DNA of 64,000 bases from an uncultured Pelagibacteraceae bacterium (GTDB lineage: Bacteria > Pseudomonadota > Alphaproteobacteria > Pelagibacterales > Pelagibacteraceae), in assembly GCA_902633585.1 (NCBI GenBank), contig CACPGZ010000001.1, positions 62,001 to 126,000 on the forward strand, written 5' to 3'. A program made the translations under genes and the position numbers. Below the pieces are notes generated by a model. It was given only the letters and a program-made list of their open reading frames with translations. It searched no databases and had not been told where the DNA came from. Positions 25,094 through 34,762 of the stretch are shown one piece after another (position 1 is the stretch's first letter; each line of letters starts with the position of its first letter).

Positions 25094-25842
25094 TAAATAA
25101 CCTTTGCCTCATTTTTTAATTTTTGAACCAGCTCAGCAACACTGGAAACTTTTATTCCAGCTTTTCTCTTAGGTGGTTCTTCGATCTTAATATGCTCGAT
25201 TCTCGGTGAGGTATCTACTCCCAAATCTGACGCATTTATCTGATCAATTGGTTTTTTCTTTGCCTTCATAATGTTAGGTAAGGAAGCATATCTAGGTTCA
25301 TTTAATCTTAAGTCACACGTGACTATCGCTGGGATACCTATTTCTATTGTTTCAAGTCCTTCATCAATTTCCCTAGTTACTTCTAATTTTTTGTCTTTTA
25401 TTTCTATCTTAGATGCAAAAGTAGCTTGTGGCCAATTTAATAAAGCACTTAACATTTGACCTGTTTGATTACAATCATCATCAATAGCTTGTTTACCCAT
25501 AAAGACTAAATCGGGTTTTTCTTTTTCAACAATTTTCTGTAATAATTTTGAAACTGCTAAAGGTTCTAAAACTCCATCAGTTTTAATTAGGATCCCTTTG
25601 TCTGCACCAACTGCCAAAGCTTTACGGACTGTTTCTTGAGCTTTCTCTTCTCCAACACTTACTGCTATAACTTCTGTTGCTTTTCCAGCTTCTTTAATTT
25701 TTACTGCCTCCTCAATAGCGTTATCATCAGGTGGGTTGGTAGACATTTTAACGTTATCTGTGACTACTCCTGTCTTATCTTCTTTAACTCTAATTTGAAC
25801 GTTATAATCAATAACTCTTTTTACTGCGACTAAAATTTTCAT
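25093..25842 (-). CDS. etfB: electron transfer flavoprotein beta subunit
   Basis: 249 residues, starting [20 protein letters not shown] and containing [16 protein letters not shown] and [15 protein letters not shown], both family signatures that contribute to AMP binding and to the docking loop. It shares single-base overlaps with the dimethylglycine dehydrogenase gene upstream and with etfA downstream, so expression is coupled to the dehydrogenase it probably serves. Confidence 0.96.
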
Positions 25843-28274
25843 TAAGCTCTCAACAATTTATTTTCAGCATCGTATGGGCCTTCCTCTAAAATGGTAGCCT
25901 CATACAATTTTCCTAATATATCAACTTTAAGTTTTTCTCCGACATTAGCAAGATCAGGTTTTACCATTGCTAATGCTATTGATTTATCTAACCTAAATCC
26001 ATATTCACCACTTGTAGCTCTTCCTACAACTTTATCGTCTTTGTAGATAGGGTTGTTTCCCAAAACATCCGAGTCAGTTGTATTATGAACTTCTAATGTA
26101 ACTAATTTATTATCAAATCCTTTTTCTCTCCATTTATTTAATGCCTGAAGCCCTATAAAATTACCTTTATTAGGATGTATAAATCTATCCAAACCTGATT
26201 CATAAGGAGAATATTCAATAGATAATTCTGTACCCACTAATTTATAGGATTTTTCAAGCCTTAAACTATTCATTGCTCTTATCCCAAAAGGTTTTATTCC
26301 TAAATCTTTTCCTGCCTCCATTAATTTATCAAATATGTGGTTTTGATATTCAATTGGATGATGTAATTCCCATCCTAATTCACCAACAAAGTTTACTCTC
26401 ATAGCGTTAACAGGTGCATACCCAACATTGACGTTTTTTGCAGTTAACCACTTAAAATTTTCACCTGAAAAATCATCTGTAGAAACTTTCTGCATTAATT
26501 CTCTTGCCTTTGGACCTGCTACAACAAGCACGCCTTTACTGTTTGTTAAATCTTCAAATATAACTGAGCCATCGGTAGGCATCCATTTTTGGATCCAATC
26601 GTGGTCTAATCTTAAATTTGCACCTGCTGAGACAAGATAATATCTATTTTCAGCTTCCTTCATGATAGTAAATTCTGAATGAACTCCTCCTTTAGTATTA
26701 AGAGCATGGCACAAATTTATTCTACCAATTTTTTTTGGAAGTTTGTTTGCAACTAAATAATCTAAAAATTCCTCTGCTCTTGGACCTCTTATTCTACACT
26801 TTGCAAAAGCAGTCATATCTAAAAGACCGACATTTTCTTTTACATTTTCGCACTCTTTTTTAATCGCATCGAACCACTTAGATCTTCTAAAAGACCAATC
26901 ATCTTTCTGCTCCATACCATCAGTTGCAAAAAAGTTTGGTCTTTCCCAACCAAACTTTTGTCCAAACACTGCACCTAAATTTTTCATTCTTTCGTAACAT
27001 GGTGAAGTCCTTAAAGGTCTTGCTGCAGGTCTTTCCTCATCTGGATAATGGGTTATAAAGACATGACTGTAAGCCTCTTCATTTTTTGCTTTTAGATAAG
27101 ATTTAGTTGCGTAATTTCCATAACGTCTAGGTTCAACACCAAGCATGTCAATTGTTGGTTCTCCATCTATTATCCACTCTGCTAACTGCCATCCCGCGCC
27201 ACCAGCTGCAGTTATACCAAAGCTATGGCCCTCATTAATCCAAAAATTTTTTAATCCCCAAGCTGGCCCAACTATTGGATTTCCATCAGGGGTATAACAA
27301 ATTGCTCCATTGTAAACTTTTTTTACTCCTACTTCACCAAATGCAGGCACTCTATGTATTGCTCCTTCAATATGAGGTGCGAGTCTATCCAAATCTTCTT
27401 GAAATAATTCATACTCAGAATTTTTAGATGGCCCTTCAAGATAACAAGCGGGTGCACCATCTTCATATGGACCAAGTATTAATCCACCAGCCTCTTCTCT
27501 CATATACCATCTGCTATCACTATCTCTTAAAACACCCATCTCAGGGAGACCTTCTTTTTTTCTTTTTTGTATTTCAGGATGTGGTTCTGTGACAATGTAT
27601 TGATGTTCTACGGGTATAACTGGAATATCTAATCCTACCATTTCACCAGTTTGTCTCGCAAAATTACCCGAACAAGAAATAACATGTTCGCATTCAATTG
27701 AACCTTTATCTGTTTCAACAATCCATCCATCTTTATTTTGTTTCATTGATAAAACAGCAGTGTTTCTATAAATTTCGGCTCCTTTATTTCTTGCTCCTGT
27801 TGCCAAAGCTTGTGTTAAGTCAGCAGGTTGAATGTATCCATCTTCTGGATGTTGAATAGCTCCAACTAAATCATCAGTATGACATAAAGGCCAAATTTCT
27901 TTTACTTGTTGAGGTGTTAAAAATTTTACGTCTACCCCTATCGTTTTTGCCACTCCTGCGTATTGGTGATATTCATCCATTCTATCTTTGGTGCTTGCTA
28001 AACGAATATTTGAAACAACACTAAAACCAACATTTTTTCCAGTCTCTTCCTCTAACTTTTTATAGAGATTTACAGCGTATTTATGAAGCTGACCAACTGA
28101 ATAGCTCATATTAAAAAGTGGCAATAACCCCGCAGCGTGCCAAGTAGAACCTGAGGTAAGTTCTTTTCTCTCAATTAAAACAACATCAGACCATCCTTTT
28201 TTAGCTAGATGATAAAGAGCACTTACTCCAACAACTCCGCCACCTACGACAACTACTTTAGTTTTGGTTTTCAT
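25842..28274 (-). CDS. dimethylglycine/sarcosine dehydrogenase family protein (FAD domain fused to GcvT-like THF domain)
   Basis: 810 residues. The N-terminal half is a DAO-type flavoprotein: [20 protein letters not shown] and then STWHAAGLL, where His46 corresponds to the residue that binds FAD covalently in dimethylglycine and sarcosine dehydrogenases. The C-terminal half (about 430-810) is GcvT-like and would catch the released methyl group as methylene-THF, ending with the glycine-cleavage-T C-domain. Electrons go to ETF, encoded by the next two genes. The likely role is oxidation of dimethylglycine from glycine betaine; sarcosine is possible. Confidence 0.9.
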
Positions 28275-28328
28275 AATTTGATTCCTACTAAATTTTTATT
28301 CATTTCGAAACAAAATTGTATCGATAGT

Positions 28329-28802
28329 TCAAATTGAACTTCCCAGAGATACTGGACTTGATACCATGGTAGTTAGCCAACAGTCCTTCAGAGGTCCGTC
28401 CTCTGTATATTTTTCAACCTGCCAATTAAATTTATGATAGATTTTTTTATTATCTAATATAATAACTTCAAATTGTACCCAATTGTCGCCACCTCTTATT
28501 TCTGTAATAGTATGGCTTATGTGATTTATCATCATTTGATAATTATTACTTTTTATCATTCTTTTAAATTTATCTAAAGGACCTGTTGCTTTTTTATTAT
28601 TTGGATGGGCAAAATTCCATGTCTGCTCTATTCCGCTATCCTCAAATCCATCATTATTATTTTGCAAACCAAGCAATTGTATCTTAACAACCTCAGAAGG
28701 TTTTATATTACTGCTTGGCTTAAGTATTTCAGCTTTAGAAATTGAAATTGATATCAAAAATACAACAAAAAAATTAAATACTATTTGAATCTTTTTTAAC
28801 AT
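28329..28802 (-). CDS. secreted DUF4864-like protein
   Basis: 157 residues with a signal peptide (about 1-24, hydrophobic core FNFFVVFLISISIS). The remainder reads PSEVVKIQLLGLQNNNDG, then a Trp-rich TWNFAHPNNKK stretch and FKRMIKSNNYQMMINH, which resembles the NTF2-like DUF4864 family that I recall from proteobacteria and algae. No catalytic residues are evident. It lies 12 bases after the ferredoxin fusion gene and 54 bases before DMGDH, on the same strand. Function unknown; location suggests the periplasm. Confidence 0.65.
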   Translation of the reverse strand: MLKKIQIVFNFFVVFLISISISKAEILKPSSNIKPSEVVKIQLLGLQNNNDGFEDSGIEQTWNFAHPNNKKATGPLDKFKRMIKSNNYQMMINHISHTITEIRGGDNWVQFEVIILDNKKIYHKFNWQVEKYTEDGPLKDCWLTTMVSSPVSLGSSI

Positions 28803-28813
28803 CTGAATAAAAT

Positions 28814-29641
28814 TTAAATTTTCTGATCAAGACGTGGTTTCCAAAATGGTCGAAAAAGTTCAATCTTTGGACATCTATCCATCACAACTTTAAGTCCGGC
28901 TTCTTCTGCTAAACGGGCAGCCTCATGATTAATCACACCAATTTGTCCCCATAACACCTTGGCACCAATTGAAATTGCTTCCTCTGCCACACCATAAAGG
29001 TCCTCTGGTTTTCTGAAAACTTCAACCATATCAACTGGACGATCAATTGATGCAAGATTTGGATATACTTTTAAATTACGAATTTCATTGATTTCTGGTT
29101 TTGGGTTAACAGGTATCATGTCATATCCAGTTTCATGCAGCACTCTTAAAACACCATAGCTAAATTTCGTTTTATCAGGACTGGCTCCAACCATTGCGAT
29201 AGTCTTAACGGACTTTAAAATATCTCTTAAATATTCGTCGCTATAAGGTTTACTATGATCCATTAATCTATTTTTTTTTACTTCTTTTAGAGTTGCTATA
29301 TCAGCTTTTAGCTCATGTGGTGCAAGTGGGTCAAGGAAAGGATTACGATAAAGTTTATCATGACTTTCAACACCAATTTCAATTTCACAATCGGTTTTTG
29401 GTTTAGCAACACACAATACAACATAACCATCATTAATTTGTCGATTATTTAAAGCAACTTGAGAACGTTGATCTATTTCTCCTTTAATTAGTTTTGCAGC
29501 ACATGTTATGCAACCTCCATATTCACAACCATAAGGAAGATCTAGTCCTTGTGCACGCAATTCTTGAAGCAAAGGTTTTCTGCTAGACACCTTAAAAATT
29601 TTATTTTCGCGATTGATAATAGTAATTTTTTTTACAGCCAT
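28814..29641 (-). CDS. fusion of a 2Fe-2S ferredoxin and a CoA-binding (YccU-like) domain
   Basis: 275 residues in two domains. Residues 1-100 are a plant-type ferredoxin with Cys39, Cys44, Cys47 and Cys77 (CEYGGCITC). Residues 125-260 are a CoA-binding Rossmann domain: SVKTIAMVGASPDKTKFSYG, then VNPKP, VEVFRKPEDL and a terminal VVMDRCPKIE, as in YccU proteins. The start overlaps the methanethiol oxidase gene by 10 bases, coupling the two. I infer electron transfer or CoA-linked regulation in methanethiol metabolism, but no biochemistry is known to me for this fusion. Confidence 0.85.
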   Translation of the reverse strand: MAVKKITIINRENKIFKVSSRKPLLQELRAQGLDLPYGCEYGGCITCAAKLIKGEIDQRSQVALNNRQINDGYVVLCVAKPKTDCEIEIGVESHDKLYRNPFLDPLAPHELKADIATLKEVKKNRLMDHSKPYSDEYLRDILKSVKTIAMVGASPDKTKFSYGVLRVLHETGYDMIPVNPKPEINEIRNLKVYPNLASIDRPVDMVEVFRKPEDLYGVAEEAISIGAKVLWGQIGVINHEAARLAEEAGLKVVMDRCPKIELFRPFWKPRLDQKI

Positions 29642-31005
29642 ATATCACTTGTGCAGTCTCCACCCGGATATCTACTTTCATGACATCTGCTCGGACCATT
29701 AGGTTCTTCACCAAAGTTAACAATAAAATCTTTATTAATTTTCATACCACCATTTTTTACATCACAGTCAATCATGATCATAGCTCCACCTTGCGTTTTT
29801 ATATCAGGGTAAAATTGATTATCCCAAGTTGAAAATAATGAAGTGGTTACATACATCCTTTTGCCATCTAAAGATAGTTGGTACATTTGCGGACCACCTG
29901 CAATCTTAACGCCATTTATAAATGGTGCTTTTCCTAAAAGACCTCCAATCCACACTTGCCCTGTTAACTTAGGTTTATGGGGATCGGTAATATCATACTG
30001 TCTCATATCTCCATGAAGCCAATTGTTTAAGTAAAGATATTTATCATCCATTGAAACAAGGATTGCAGACATAACTCCCGGAATTGGAATAGGCCAATCA
30101 GGGTGAGGTTCATTCTCAATATCTATAATTTTTTCCCATTCCCATTTTCCATCTTTAGATTTCCAAAAATGAATAACATTTGAACTTAGCGCTGCACCAC
30201 AAAATCCATGAGAACTATTAGGATCATGTTTAAATTTTACTTCCAAAGGTATTAAACCATCCTCTCCAAGATACATCGTCTCAACTGGTTTTTTTTTTTT
30301 AAAATCCCAAATATGAAGTCTTCGTCCATATTTTAGGTGCCCTACTTCCTCAAGATCAAAACCTGGCATGAAGGTGTTAGGAGCTGCCCATTCTGAACTA
30401 ACCATAACATTGTGACGTGGCTGGTACCAAAAATCGTAGCTAAAAGGAATATCTCCCATTGAGTTTTCCCACCTTCCTACAATTTCAAAATCTTTATTCA
30501 AATGTAGATACCCTCCTGGGGCTTCGCCTTTGGCGTTGCCAAGAAAAGAAATAATTATTTCAGAGCCTAAACAGTGCACTGTATGAGGACCTGATAAGTT
30601 TGTTTTAGATTTTATTTCTGAACCTTTAATTACTTTATGAATTTTTGGAGCTAATGGATTAGACGCAGTATCAATTACGTGAATATTATTTGACCTGACA
30701 CCAGGTACTAATAAATATTTTCTACTCATCCCAGTGTCACCATGACATGAAGAACATGCGTTCCATCCCATATGATGCAATTCATCTCCAATTCCTGGCA
30801 TCTCTAGACGATGAATAACTTTTGAGTAAGTTGAACTGTTTGGGTCAACGTCAATAGTTGCAAGATAATCAGGTTTTTGAATTCCAGTTCCAGTGTAAAT
30901 TGCTATTGTATATAAAAGTTTTTCATTTGGTGCTTTAATTGCATCGGATGGACTAGCATATCCAGGTCCACAACAATTTTTATCAGTCACTTCAATATCG
31001 CTCAT
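29632..31005 (-). CDS. mtoX: methanethiol oxidase (SBP56/selenium-binding protein family)
   Basis: 457 residues of the SBP56 family: CCGPGYASPSDAIKAP at residues 11-26, then repeated beta-propeller-like blades with WNACSSCHGD near 95, HTVHCLGS, DFWYQPRHNVMVSSEW and YPGGDC at the end. Bacterial members characterised in Hyphomicrobium oxidise methanethiol to formaldehyde, H2S and H2O2. Methanethiol is produced from DMSP in the ocean. No obvious signal peptide is seen, so cytoplasmic location is likely, unlike the periplasmic Hyphomicrobium enzyme. It overlaps the ferredoxin fusion gene and lies 9 bases after the crotonase gene. Confidence 0.85.
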   Translation of the reverse strand: MSDIEVTDKNCCGPGYASPSDAIKAPNEKLLYTIAIYTGTGIQKPDYLATIDVDPNSSTYSKVIHRLEMPGIGDELHHMGWNACSSCHGDTGMSRKYLLVPGVRSNNIHVIDTASNPLAPKIHKVIKGSEIKSKTNLSGPHTVHCLGSEIIISFLGNAKGEAPGGYLHLNKDFEIVGRWENSMGDIPFSYDFWYQPRHNVMVSSEWAAPNTFMPGFDLEEVGHLKYGRRLHIWDFKKKKPVETMYLGEDGLIPLEVKFKHDPNSSHGFCGAALSSNVIHFWKSKDGKWEWEKIIDIENEPHPDWPIPIPGVMSAILVSMDDKYLYLNNWLHGDMRQYDITDPHKPKLTGQVWIGGLLGKAPFINGVKIAGGPQMYQLSLDGKRMYVTTSLFSTWDNQFYPDIKTQGGAMIMIDCDVKNGGMKINKDFIVNFGEEPNGPSRCHESRYPGGDCTSDIWL

Positions 31006-31014
31006 TATATAATT

Positions 31015-31788
31015 TTATTTATTTTTCCAAATCGGTTTTCTTTTTTCAAGAAAAGCTGAAATACCCTCTTTAGCGTCCATGGCCATCATATTTGTCGTCA
31101 TCACTTTACTTGTATAGGAATAAGCTTTTTTTAATGGCATTTCTAATTGTTTATAAAAAGCTTGTTTTCCGATTTTAATTGTAAGATTAGATTTTGTCGA
31201 AATTTTTTTTGCAATTTTTAAAACTTCGCTATTTAATTTTGACTTTGTAAAACAATCATTGATTAAACCAATTTCTTTTGCATAATTTGCTCTAATTGGT
31301 TCACCAGTAAGAAGCATTTTCATCATGTGTTTTTTACTAATCTTCCTACTTACAGCTACCATTGGTGTGCTGCAAAATAATCCTATATTAACTCCAGGTG
31401 TTGCAAAAATAGCATCATTAGTACTATAAGCTAAATCACAACTAGCAACTAATTGACAACCTGCAGCGTATGCTGCTCCATGAACCTTTGCAATAACAGG
31501 TTTTCTACCCTCGACTATTTGAAGCATTAACTTTGAGCATAGATTAAATAATTTATTGTATTTGTCTTTCTTCTTTAAATTTTTTACTTCTTTCAAGTTA
31601 TGGCCTGCACTAAATCCTTTTCCGGCACCCTCAAGAATTATTACTTTAACTTTTTTATCTTTATCTAATTTTTTGAAAGTAATTATTAAATCATTAAGAT
31701 TTTTGCTTGATAACGAGTTATATGTTTTTGGATCATTGATTATAACTATTGCTATATCTTTATTGTATTTAATGTTCCTAATATTCAT
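31015..31788 (-). CDS. ECHDC3-like crotonase family protein lacking both hydratase glutamates
   Basis: 257 residues with the crotonase fold: oxyanion-hole segments GKGFSAGHNLKE (57-68) and HGAAYAAGCQLVASCD (103-118). In enoyl-CoA hydratase two glutamates are catalytic; here the aligned positions are Gln112 and Gly132 (ATPGVNIGLFCSTP). This pattern matches ECHDC3-type proteins, whose reaction is unknown. It is therefore probably not a standard hydratase nor DmdD. It lies 6 bases after the nucleotidyltransferase gene and 9 bases before mtoX, on the same strand. Confidence 0.82.
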   Translation of the reverse strand: MNIRNIKYNKDIAIVIINDPKTYNSLSSKNLNDLIITFKKLDKDKKVKVIILEGAGKGFSAGHNLKEVKNLKKKDKYNKLFNLCSKLMLQIVEGRKPVIAKVHGAAYAAGCQLVASCDLAYSTNDAIFATPGVNIGLFCSTPMVAVSRKISKKHMMKMLLTGEPIRANYAKEIGLINDCFTKSKLNSEVLKIAKKISTKSNLTIKIGKQAFYKQLEMPLKKAYSYTSKVMTTNMMAMDAKEGISAFLEKRKPIWKNK

Positions 31789-31794
31789 TTGAAA

Positions 31795-32169
31795 TTATTT
31801 AAGCTTACCTTCTTCCCTCATTTTTGCTCTTATCTTCGTAGCTGAAATTTTCTGTATCTCTTCAGGTAAAATAATTTCCTCCATTTTGTAGCCAACACCT
31901 CTTCCGTAACAAATATTAGTTACATTAGGAACCAGCATAATTTGAAACCGTCCCTCAAATTCAGGATTTAGTCTATCTTGAATATTTTTTTTTACTGTCT
32001 CGAAATCAAATGGGTTATCGTCTACACCTTGAACATCTCTAATCTGTATACAAACTTGACCAGTTTTTTTAATAATCTCTTTGAATAGACTATAGTGACC
32101 ATCATGAAATGGTTGCCACCTTCCTAACATTTGAGCTGTTGGTTTTTTATTGTCCCATTTGTAAGACAT
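31795..32169 (-). CDS. small nucleotidyltransferase-like protein (HxGH family)
   Basis: 124 residues. LGRWQPFHDGH (15-25) supplies the HxGH motif of the nucleotidylyltransferase superfamily and ISATKIRAKM (108-117) supplies the ISxTxIR signature, so both ends of the active site are present. It probably transfers AMP or CMP to a phosphorylated substrate. Length is short compared with NadD or PPAT. The start overlaps the kinase stop, a one-base overlap, making an obligate pair. Substrate unknown; the neighbouring kinase suggests the two act in sequence. Confidence 0.78.
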   Translation of the reverse strand: MSYKWDNKKPTAQMLGRWQPFHDGHYSLFKEIIKKTGQVCIQIRDVQGVDDNPFDFETVKKNIQDRLNPEFEGRFQIMLVPNVTNICYGRGVGYKMEEIILPEEIQKISATKIRAKMREEGKLK

Positions 32170-32576
32170 TATTTAATTTCCTTAAATATTTTTGGTGCCC
32201 AATTTTTAGCATCTTGAGTGGTAACATGAAAGTTATACTTCTCAGGTTTTACAAACATTTTATTAGTGTCGTCAAATCTGCCTTCTTTTATTGTATCTAC
32301 CCATATAATAAAATCTGCTGGAAATAATGCTCTTGCTGCTGGTGTTGGACAAACAAAATCAGCAACAACGTGGTTACCTTGATTTTTATACTCTTGTGCT
32401 CTAATCCACATTCTTTTGGCTTGTCGAGTTCTCCCTTTAGCCGAGAAGTCCCAATCATTTGCCTCTTTTCTAACCTCATCAGCATTTAGCCATTTTGCTT
32501 TAAGTAAGGGAACTAGCTCTGAGGCCAAAGTTGTTTTACCAGAGCCTGGTAACCCCATGATTAATATAATCTTCAT
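32169..32576 (-). CDS. small P-loop kinase, adenylylsulfate-kinase-like
   Basis: 135 residues. Walker A GLPGSGKTT at 8-16 is followed by LNADEVRKEANDWDFS and RTRQAKRMWIRAQ, in the same order as in APS kinase, but the protein is about 60 residues shorter than usual CysC. It lacks a clear lid region, so the annotation as APS kinase is not safe. It starts the minus-strand run and diverges from the MTHFR-like gene over 106 bases. Together with the nucleotidyltransferase it might build an activated nucleotide-linked compound. Confidence 0.75.
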   Translation of the reverse strand: MKIILIMGLPGSGKTTLASELVPLLKAKWLNADEVRKEANDWDFSAKGRTRQAKRMWIRAQEYKNQGNHVVADFVCPTPAARALFPADFIIWVDTIKEGRFDDTNKMFVKPEKYNFHVTTQDAKNWAPKIFKEIK

Positions 32577-32682: not shown

Positions 32683-33411
32683 ATGAATTTTTCTCTCGAA
32701 ATTAGCCCAACTACGGATCTTGATACAGTACCTTCAGTAAATGATATTTATATTACAATGCTTCCAGGAGGAGACTATAAAGATACAGCATACCAAGCAG
32801 TTGAGTTAGTAAAAAAAGGATTTAATCCTGTTCCACATTTTCCAGCTCGATCAATTCATAATGAGAAAGAACTCAAAGATTATATTACTAGATGTAAAGA
32901 TGGAGGAGTAAAACAGGTCTTAATAATTGGTGGAGGTAGAGAGCCTGTCGGCAAATTTGATAGCTCTTTTCAACTTTTAGAGACCGGTTATTTTGATAAT
33001 ATGACGATAGGAATTGCTGGACATCCTGAGGGGAGTCCTGATATATCCGATTTAAGTTTAGAAAAAGCTATGAAAGATAAAAAGCCTTATGCTGATTATA
33101 TAGTAACACAGTGGTTGTTAGATCCTCAGCCAATCATAAACTTTATTTCTAAACAAAGCGTACCAGTGCATGTGGGAATTACTGGACCTCTAAAAATATC
33201 AAGCTTAATTAAGTTTGCAAATATTGTTGGAGCAAAAAATTCCTTAAACTTTCTTAAATCTAATTTTACTAAGGCATTAGATTTATTGAAACCTAAAGAC
33301 CCTAATGATTTAATTGGGAAAGTTAAATCGCATACTGATTTCTTCCACATTTATACATTCGGCGGATTGAAGGAAACAAACAAGTGGTTGAAGGAGAATA
33401 GTTATGTCTAA
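32683..33411 (+). CDS. short methylenetetrahydrofolate reductase-like protein
   Basis: 242 residues, shorter than MetF (near 290). The first strand FSLEISPTTD contains Glu6 at the place of the catalytic acid of MetF, followed by FNPVPHFPARSI and QVLIIGGGREPVGKF, ADYIVTQWLLDP and GITGPLK, all MTHFR-like. It probably interconverts methyl- and methylene-THF, or is a variant acting with the adjacent GcvT-family enzyme, whose start overlaps its end by 8 bases. A role in oxidising methyl groups to feed C1 metabolism is inferred. Confidence 0.8.
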   Translation: MNFSLEISPTTDLDTVPSVNDIYITMLPGGDYKDTAYQAVELVKKGFNPVPHFPARSIHNEKELKDYITRCKDGGVKQVLIIGGGREPVGKFDSSFQLLETGYFDNMTIGIAGHPEGSPDISDLSLEKAMKDKKPYADYIVTQWLLDPQPIINFISKQSVPVHVGITGPLKISSLIKFANIVGAKNSLNFLKSNFTKALDLLKPKDPNDLIGKVKSHTDFFHIYTFGGLKETNKWLKENSYV

Positions 33412-34762
33412 AGAATTTGACTACACTAAATTAAAACATGCTACTTCAGTAGATCAATCAGATCGAAAAGTACCATACAATTTAAGACAAAGTGGGCCTA
33501 CTAAAGTTGAAATGTTAATCTCAACAAGAGTAAGAAAATCACCATATTGGCATCTATCGATGCAAGCAGGTTGTTGGAGAGCAACAGTTTACAATAGAAT
33601 ATATCATCCAAGAGGTTATGTGAAACCTGAAGATGGTGGTGCTATGGTTGAGTATGATGCAATTGTCAACCATGTAACTATGTGGAATGTTGCAGTTGAA
33701 AGACAAATCCAAGTAAAAGGTCCTGATGCAGAAAAATTTGTAGACTATGTGATAACTAGAGATGCAACTAAGATTTCTCCAATGAGAGCAAGATATGTAA
33801 TTTTATGTAATTCTTATGGAGGAGTCTTAAATGATCCAATACTTTTAAGAATTTCAAAAGATGAATTTTGGTTTTCTCTATCAGATTCAGATATAGGAAT
33901 GTATCTTCAAGGAGTTAATTCAGATGGTAGATTTAATTGCACTGTAGATGAGATAGATGCATGCCCTGTTCAAATTCAGGGACCTAAATCGAAAGCACTT
34001 ATGAAAGATTTATTAGGTGATCAGGTTGATTTAGAAAATATGCCGTTCTATGGTTTAGCAGAAGTTAAAGTTGAAGGAAGAAGTTGTGTTATTTCTCAAT
34101 CAGGGTTTTCGGGTGAGGCTGGTTACGAAATATATTTAAGGAATGCAACTTTATATGCTGATGAAATGTGGAATGCTGTTCTTAAAGCTGGTAAAAAACA
34201 CCAACTGATGGTTATTGCTCCAGCTCACCATAGAAGAATTCAAGCTGGGATTCTTTCTTGGGGTCAAGATATGGATCAACAGCACAACCCATTTCAGTGT
34301 AATTTAGGTTATCAAGTTTCTTTATCAGGAAAAGGTGAATGGAAAAAAACTTCTGATTATGTTGGAAAAAAAGCTCTTGAAAAAATGGGTGCTGAAATTA
34401 AAGCTGGAAAAAAACCATATAAGTTACAGTTGGTTGGTCTTGAGTTAGGAGGGAAACCTATAGATGATTATGCTCCAGATTTTTGGTTGATATCCAATAT
34501 AGATGGTGGTGATCCAGTTGGTTTTGTGACATCCCCTTGGTACCACCCAGAAAAAAAAACAAATATAGCTATGGGATATGTACCTTTTGATGGAACCTTA
34601 AATTCCAATGGTTTTCCGAAAGGTAAAATTGGAAAGAAATTTAAAGTTCATTTACCCGACAAATATTCGGATACCCCAGGTACACCTGTTAATGCTGTTA
34701 TAGTTGATATTCCATTTAAGGAATCTTACAATGCTAATACAAGAGAAGTGTCATCTGGTTAA
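33404..34762 (+). CDS. GcvT/DmdA-family tetrahydrofolate methyltransferase, substrate unknown
   Basis: 452 residues. The region 80-420 matches aminomethyltransferase and DmdA: WNVAVERQIQVKGPDAEKFV, RYVILCNSYGGVLNDPILLR, then QSGFSGEAGYEIYLRN, and a C-domain with GYVPFDG. It is longer than DmdA (about 370) because of an N-terminal extension of some 50 residues (STRVRKSPYWHLSMQAG). In the SAR11 clade DmdA demethylates DMSP; this looks like a related but separate subfamily. The substrate might be another methylated compound. It forms a two-gene unit with the MTHFR-like gene. Confidence 0.8.
   Translation: MSKEFDYTKLKHATSVDQSDRKVPYNLRQSGPTKVEMLISTRVRKSPYWHLSMQAGCWRATVYNRIYHPRGYVKPEDGGAMVEYDAIVNHVTMWNVAVERQIQVKGPDAEKFVDYVITRDATKISPMRARYVILCNSYGGVLNDPILLRISKDEFWFSLSDSDIGMYLQGVNSDGRFNCTVDEIDACPVQIQGPKSKALMKDLLGDQVDLENMPFYGLAEVKVEGRSCVISQSGFSGEAGYEIYLRNATLYADEMWNAVLKAGKKHQLMVIAPAHHRRIQAGILSWGQDMDQQHNPFQCNLGYQVSLSGKGEWKKTSDYVGKKALEKMGAEIKAGKKPYKLQLVGLELGGKPIDDYAPDFWLISNIDGGDPVGFVTSPWYHPEKKTNIAMGYVPFDGTLNSNGFPKGKIGKKFKVHLPDKYSDTPGTPVNAVIVDIPFKESYNANTREVSSG

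Follow-up and report, generated by a model that had tools for sequence, protein, structure and literature searches.

A conserved three-gene unit in marine bacteria encodes an SBP56 protein, a plant-type ferredoxin and a YccU-like protein and is predicted to act in methanethiol oxidation

The stretch of DNA analyzed here (64,000 nucleotides, hereafter the window) comes from a 0.9 Mb genome that is 66% complete and whose nearest relatives are Pelagibacteraceae. Its minus strand carries a gene for an SBP56 protein followed by an open reading frame (ORF) of 275 amino acids (28814-29641) that is uninterrupted in the assembly. The features at this site are as follows.

28329..28802, minus strand: small protein, downstream neighbor, with a weak DUF4864 match (E 0.0004; 21.1 bits, below the cut-off of 27.1)
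28814..29263, minus strand: YccU-like CoA-binding-type protein, 149 aa from its own ATG (CoA_binding_2); encoded on its own in almost all relatives
29270..29641, minus strand: ferredoxin part, ORF residues 1-124 (Fer2); likewise encoded on its own in almost all relatives
29271..29279, minus strand: homopolymer uniting both reading frames, nine A on the coding strand (a T-run on the forward strand); ten A and a stop in the relative L027, by alignment
29632..29641, minus strand: overlap of the SBP56 gene end with the ferredoxin start, exactly 10 bases by coordinates
29632..31005, minus strand: SBP56 protein, 457 aa, predicted cluster-1 methanethiol-oxidase type (Pfam SBP56, 674 bits; signal peptide not evident by eye)
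31015..31788, minus strand: enoyl-CoA hydratase, upstream neighbor (NCBIfam PRK08139, 352 bits vs 313); conserved in position in SAR11 whether the three genes are present or absent

For comparison, we fetched the best 80, ranked by score, of at least 573 relatives confirmed in a genome-contig scan with the ferredoxin-CoA query (L002-L081), leaving the window's own DNA (L001) out of all relative counts. Both domains that the initial annotation assigned to the 275-residue ORF are present: Pfam Fer2 matches residues 8-81 (E 2e-13) and CoA_binding_2 matches residues 145-260 (E 1.3e-36; 126 bits against a curated cut-off of 22.8). Cys39, Cys44, Cys47 and Cys77 have the spacing of plant-type ferredoxins and are cysteine in 80/80 fetched relatives, with no motif filter applied. 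By its Fer2 match and these four cysteines, the first part is a plant-type [2Fe-2S] ferredoxin with predicted cluster and redox activity; against TIGR02008 it scores 72.5 bits, under that model's cut-off of 81.15. Cys85 was dropped as a functional residue, being cysteine in only 72/80 relatives.

The second part is a YccU-like, CoA-binding-type protein by domain and motifs, with putative CoA binding; G152, A153, S154, N179, P180 and Cys257 are kept in all 80 relatives, and its best solved relative is 2duw (E 4.4e-35). Because the aligned solved YccU-type proteins also have cysteine at the position of Cys257, this residue gives no special sign of sulfur chemistry. While it shares one domain across its whole length with YccU/CoA_binding_2 proteins such as 2duw, PH1109 and TT1466, the protein differs from them in forming its own subfamily, which has a fixed KFSYG and RCPKIELFRPFWKP signature and is tied to SBP56 and ferredoxin. 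Our literature search on the function of YccU or CoA_binding_2 proteins gave nothing useful. One genome holds a second copy of the CoA protein (L152:8713-9162; 66% identical, with an NRCPKIEL motif and an altered tail) behind a gene that by eye resembles a PAS histidine kinase.

Although the two domains are joined in a single ORF in this assembly, as initially annotated, their union does not hold up as a biological feature. The ferredoxin and CoA parts are separate, adjacent ORFs in 79/80 fetched relatives (78 by script, plus L017, which escaped the script's motif and was read individually), the sole fused case being Mesorhizobium LHD-90 (L009). Across the fetched loci, the CoA gene occupies all three frames relative to the ferredoxin gene with short gaps or overlaps, and of the 79 loci in which a script located the CoA frame, 43 have a Shine-Dalgarno-like AAGGA or GGAGG no more than 20 bases from the first ATG of that frame, a loose pattern counted with no control. 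In Phaeobacter the genes are likewise split, with a TAA stop and then a new ATG. A search of 41 genomes of the same genus (own included) found both parts at ≥70% identity in 7 of the 40 others, separate each time; these matches are partly not independent, since at least three of the seven are contigs of fetched loci (G010, G013 and G039 being the contigs of L048, L038 and L037), and G011 and G027 have one part cut by a contig end. Phage records matching the window ORF (284) each matched a single domain, none over 80% of the query. With just one fused case in 80 and all same-genus matches separate, a fusion as conserved architecture was ruled out.

The nearest relative, L027, is 92.3% identical to the window over 13,002 aligned columns. 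Its A-run is one A longer, which brings a TAG into frame and splits the genes. This A is the sole uncompensated coding indel between the two sequences over 13 kb, the remaining indels being balanced pairs or intergenic (both by eye from the indel list). The window ORF most likely represents two genes that are merged here because one homopolymer A is absent, an absence arising either from a sequencing or amplification error or from a strain-specific frameshift; a single homopolymer base is able to create an apparent fusion. AlphaFold models of the ORF (33 alignment rows; five models, mean pLDDT 70-83) contain two folded domains with a pTM of 0.53, and the linker (113-124) and tail (267-275) fall under pLDDT 50. 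The low pTM and disordered linker give no support to a rigid two-domain protein and, with the genes normally separate, leave unsupported the initial proposal of a fused protein that works as a single carrier or sensor.

In our judgment, it is quite unlikely that this strain makes a genuine, working fusion protein, or that slippage on the A-run yields fused and split products side by side. In favor of such a reading, the assembly leaves the ORF open, L009 is a second fused case, and the tail preceding the CoA start differs in length between loci and so tolerates change. In 39 loci, a one-base slip on the A-run would unite the frames, a number that reflects the frame offset and gives no independent support; beyond it, we found no evidence of programmed slippage on the A-run. 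Against this reading, a close relative is split by one homopolymer base, the A-run is absent there in most GC-rich relatives, and the model has no fixed domain arrangement. We regard it as very likely that the ORF corresponds to two separate genes that belong to a three-gene unit.

All 79 evaluable fetched loci have the SBP56 gene upstream and in the same orientation (L031 is cut by a contig end, and the gap to SBP56 in L071 is ~0.3 kb). Since a set drawn with the ferredoxin-CoA query is biased, we sampled a second time by SBP56, which gave matches in 21/289 class genomes and 40/348 phylum genomes (35/40 over the cut-off), with some genomes in both sets and the weakest matches excluded from the fetched loci. 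Ten loci (own included), with SBP56 63-95% identical to that of Phaeobacter, make up clade A; ferredoxin is adjacent in 10/10 (after ~0.26 kb and at 46% identity in L098) and the CoA gene in 9/10. Neither gene was found beside SBP56 in any of the 38 other loci, namely 31 of clade B (39-43% identity) and 7 MtoX-like (26-28%, two being tandem copies in one genome), within flanks of ~1.5 kb or less at contig ends, ruling out either gene as a general SBP56 partner. The CoA subfamily of the unit (E ≤ 1e-40) occurs in 5/289 class genomes, all five (own included) with clade-A SBP56 and ferredoxin; G055, which has ferredoxin only, is absent from the five. The CoA gene touches or nearly touches the ferredoxin gene.

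The initially noted 10-base overlap is exact in the window, and the linkage of both domains to SBP56 was borne out in the fetched loci and in 5/5 CoA-subfamily genomes of the unbiased class sample. The initial annotation would have counted occurrence of the fusion without mtoX, or loss of the CoA site, against itself; as far as tested, SBP56 was present in 79/79 loci and the CoA motifs in 80/80. Taken together, comparative sequence evidence indicates that SBP56, a [2Fe-2S] ferredoxin and a YccU-like protein are encoded by a real, widely conserved three-gene unit in marine bacteria, with occurrences in SAR11, SAR116 and roseobacters.

In a 54-row tree, the group with both ferredoxin and CoA genes (27 rows) corresponds to one change with support of 100/99, and its sister (99/99) is Paracoccus seriniphilus, which has the ferredoxin but not the CoA gene. 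The program flagged the node uniting clade B and the MtoX group as a possible long-branch effect, and no conclusion depends on it. By this topology, the CoA gene was joined once, onto an older SBP56-ferredoxin pair. Among plasmid SBP56 genes at ≥49% identity (n=11), an intact ferredoxin gene lies directly downstream in six (Phaeobacter, Paracoccus, Halocatena, Haladaptatus, N. aibiense and N. occultus), four of them haloarchaeal; a ferredoxin remnant stands beside SBP56 in N. gelatinilyticum, and tblastn found no ferredoxin in the remaining four (Rubrobacter, Haloterrigena, N. salinisoli and N. bangense). The SBP56-ferredoxin pair is thus found in both Bacteria and Archaea, without being a fixed arrangement outside the ferredoxin-CoA clade. 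On the Natronorubrum aibiense plasmid, SBP56 and ferredoxin are followed by a Pyr_redox_2 FAD reductase, presumably of a kind that typically passes electrons to ferredoxins; this is the only case of such a reductase beside the ferredoxin. In Paracoccus, a copper chaperone gene (PpoB2/DUF2182) adjoins ferredoxin.

The SAR11 site is syntenic (window 25842-32576, L155-L163), with enoyl-CoA hydratase, the unit, the DUF4864-like gene, DMGDH and Etf genes (EtfBA). In nine regions of the same genus without the unit, a YccU-like gene at 34-41% follows the hydratase at the same site, and eight of the nine reach the DUF4864-like gene and DMGDH; these regions were chosen for their YccU-like match, and the absence of SBP56 applies to the regions rather than to whole genomes. 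In L036-L054, a generic YccU-like gene comes after the CoA gene of the unit. Because SAR11 regions without the unit keep another YccU-like gene there, an exclusive tie between the CoA-type protein and the oxidase is weakened, and CoA-type proteins at this site may serve other enzymes. Further upstream, at 31795-32576 (minus strand), lie overlapping genes for a 124-aa cytidylyltransferase-like and a 135-aa kinase-like protein, which are conserved beside the hydratase in SAR11. At 32683-34762 (plus strand), the window encodes a short MTHFR-like protein and a GcvT-family protein resembling DMSP demethylase (233 of 410 bits); the latter may demethylate a different methyl compound.

On plasmid pP30_b of Phaeobacter inhibens (L082, record 57826-65856), the unit is followed by genes for a rhodanese, an MBL protein with a sub-cut-off match to the Blh dioxygenase model (367 of 625), an enoyl-CoA hydratase, an acyl-CoA synthetase and a DmdA-like GcvT protein (377 of 410 bits for DMSP demethylase, below cut-off). 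Since this plasmid is conjugative by PLSDB typing, the pathway may be transferable. Such neighbors recur, with weak matches included and counted anywhere in the locus, in 49 loci (L082, 42 of L004-L081 picked for diversity, and L083-L088): hydratase and IclR in 16 each, GcvT and rhodanese in 11 each, acyl-CoA synthetase in 10 and MBL in 4. In a metatranscriptome, a protein with a CoA-binding domain (2517702558) and another described as selenium-binding (2517702560) are reported with similar expression ratios (0.42 and 0.47), both higher in MBARI-C16 (PMC10203303); going by their gene numbers, two apart, they may be this unit with ferredoxin between them.

The SBP56 protein matches its Pfam family over residues 11-457 (E 1.2e-202, 674 bits against a cut-off of 34), and its nearest solved structure is 2ece (E 4.9e-127). 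The label mtoX in the initial annotation fits at the level of this family but is otherwise loose, as the protein reaches 162.3 bits against the 650 required by the NCBIfam MtoX equivalog. Its motifs GWNACS, HTVHC and GGDC, matching the cluster-1 forms GWNACS, HTV(I)HC and GGDC(S/T), contain Cys84, Cys145 and Cys451; among the fetched relatives covered at each position, cysteine stands there in 78, 78 and 79, respectively. Activity of human SELENBP1 is reported to need HH, HxxH, Asp and Glu residues, with Cys141 dispensable, and to yield H2S and H2O2 (PMC10362175); the matching residues, assigned by motif, are invariant in 78/78 covered relatives.

Among cluster-1 methanethiol oxidases of Rhodobacteraceae (PMC10936201), RdMTO has C82, C143 and C448 and RlMTO has C76, C140 and C456. 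All three cysteine motifs are shared with the window protein, whose spacing (61/306) is within one residue of that of RdMTO (61/305), suggesting that RdMTO belongs to the same SBP56 clade; the spacing of RlMTO is common to most clade-B SBP56 proteins. When made in E. coli, RdMTO and RlMTO reportedly consumed 44 and 111 uM methanethiol, gave a larger signal for HSSH than for H2S and no H2O2, and carried Cys-S-S-CH3 on the third cysteine, with a published net reaction of CH3SH + O2 -> HCHO + S0 + H2O (PMC10936201). The human SELENBP1 data, with H2S and H2O2 as products and no need for Cys141, are at odds with this sulfane-sulfur scheme (PMC10362175). We consider it probable that the window SBP56 protein is a methanethiol oxidase, with activity predicted from sequence, and it appears to be of the cytosolic, copper-type "cluster 1". 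The examined parts of PMC10936201 mention no ferredoxin or operon, whereas here ferredoxin and CoA-type genes complete a unit. The MtoX operon of Hyphomicrobium and Ruegeria, as reported, includes SCO1/senC and mauG (PMC5739008); it has the SBP56 family in common with the present unit, and an IclR regulator adjoins the gene in many roseobacters here too. In contrast with Hyphomicrobium-type MtoX, the window protein is without an evident signal peptide, scores far under the MtoX cut-off and has other partners: SCO1 and MauG gave no match in its own genome (66% complete) or among adjoining genes.

The open-access literature that we searched describes no ferredoxin or CoA partner of SBP56 or methanethiol oxidase, in keeping with the initial statement that neither domain is part of known methanethiol oxidase systems, and the three-gene unit is a methanethiol-oxidase operon variant that we did not find described there. 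DMSP is reported to induce mtoX in R. pomeroyi (PMC9769926), SELENBP1/mtoX is predicted in SAR116 (PMC12262181), and the groups that carry the unit (SAR11, SAR116 and roseobacters) are tied to ocean DMSP sulfur. The products of methanethiol oxidase are disputed between H2S plus H2O2 (PMC10362175) and sulfane sulfur (PMC10936201), and the fate of electrons and sulfur is unsettled. A ferredoxin belonging to one enzyme clade, in Proteobacteria and some haloarchaea, and a once-joined CoA-type protein put names to missing components, which can be supplied in a simple assay.

We think it somewhat probable that the three-gene unit, methanethiol oxidation and a redox role of ferredoxin hold jointly. 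As in its studied relatives, SBP56 would make formaldehyde and sulfane sulfur via Cys-S-S-CH3 and Cys-S-SH on the GGDC cysteine, and ferredoxin would donate electrons to SBP56. We give this donor role an even chance, because ferredoxin constantly accompanies a single clade, one archaeon encodes a FAD reductase directly behind it, and an enzyme persulfide would need to be discharged. Ferredoxin might then reduce the persulfide on the enzyme, or sulfur handed over by it, to sulfide for assimilation; reduction of the persulfide is a tentative proposal, made by analogy with FDX2, which is reported to reduce a protein persulfide on ISCU (PMC6687725). The CoA protein might take up or relay sulfur through bound CoA and/or Cys257, and we regard such a relay as doubtful; per- and polysulfides are reported substrates of CoA-using reductases (PMC6026696). 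The likeness to FDX2-ISCU and to CoA-disulfide/persulfide reductases lies only in the proposed chemistry, with ferredoxin electrons going to a persulfide and CoA as thiol helper; the proteins are different and no homology is claimed. At its furthest, the unit would be a self-contained methanethiol desulfurization module in which the oxidase persulfide passes to the CoA protein (as CoA or cysteine persulfide) and is reduced to sulfide by ferredoxin, a ferredoxin-driven, CoA-assisted persulfide reductase not yet described; we hold this to be improbable. If true, SAR11 and roseobacters would draw on the sulfur of methanethiol with no release of free polysulfide or H2O2. Reductive sulfur release would be useful because Ruegeria reportedly draws nearly all cell sulfur from DMSP via a sulfide pool (PMC7157515). 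The partners are unnecessary for turnover, as cluster-1 enzymes alone consume methanethiol in E. coli (PMC10936201).

Other roles for the two partners overlap with one another, and their probabilities do not sum to one. A serious possibility, short of even, is that the CoA-type protein serves CoA-thioester steps of DMSP breakdown (enoyl-CoA hydratase, acyl-CoA synthetase) and merely travels with the oxidase. The YccU-like gene behind the hydratase in the nine SAR11 regions favors this, as do the hydratase (16/49) and synthetase (10/49) genes around the unit, weak matches included, but the subfamily is found only with SBP56 and ferredoxin (5/289 genomes) and its gene touches or nearly touches that of ferredoxin. 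Ferredoxin could instead feed the SBP56 copper site for O2 activation in a monooxygenase-like reaction that forms no H2O2, with the CoA protein as an accessory. That ferredoxin tracks a single oxidase clade, that the N. aibiense reductase follows it, that the copper-site residues are invariant and that H2O2 was not seen with the studied enzymes (PMC10936201) all agree with this role; we still judge it unlikely, as those enzymes work alone and their published net reaction requires no outside electrons (PMC10936201).

Electrons might also flow the other way, with ferredoxin as the acceptor that keeps the electrons of methanethiol oxidation for the cell rather than for O2. The constant SBP56-ferredoxin pairing is compatible with this scheme, but we rate it as very improbable: the reductase in N. 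aibiense is presumably of a type that commonly feeds ferredoxins. The studied enzymes, moreover, use O2 (PMC10936201). Nothing was found in favor of the CoA-linked methylthio intermediate proposed in the initial annotation.

Clade-B SBP56 genes come with a distinct partner, a ~210-aa protein that is hydrophobic by eye, carries conserved HG.NP.MGW and AHGA motifs and has no Pfam match. It adjoins SBP56 in 32/33 examined loci (L087:6400-7026, L088:6463-7119 and 30/31 of the clade-B loci within L104-L145) and may move a metal.
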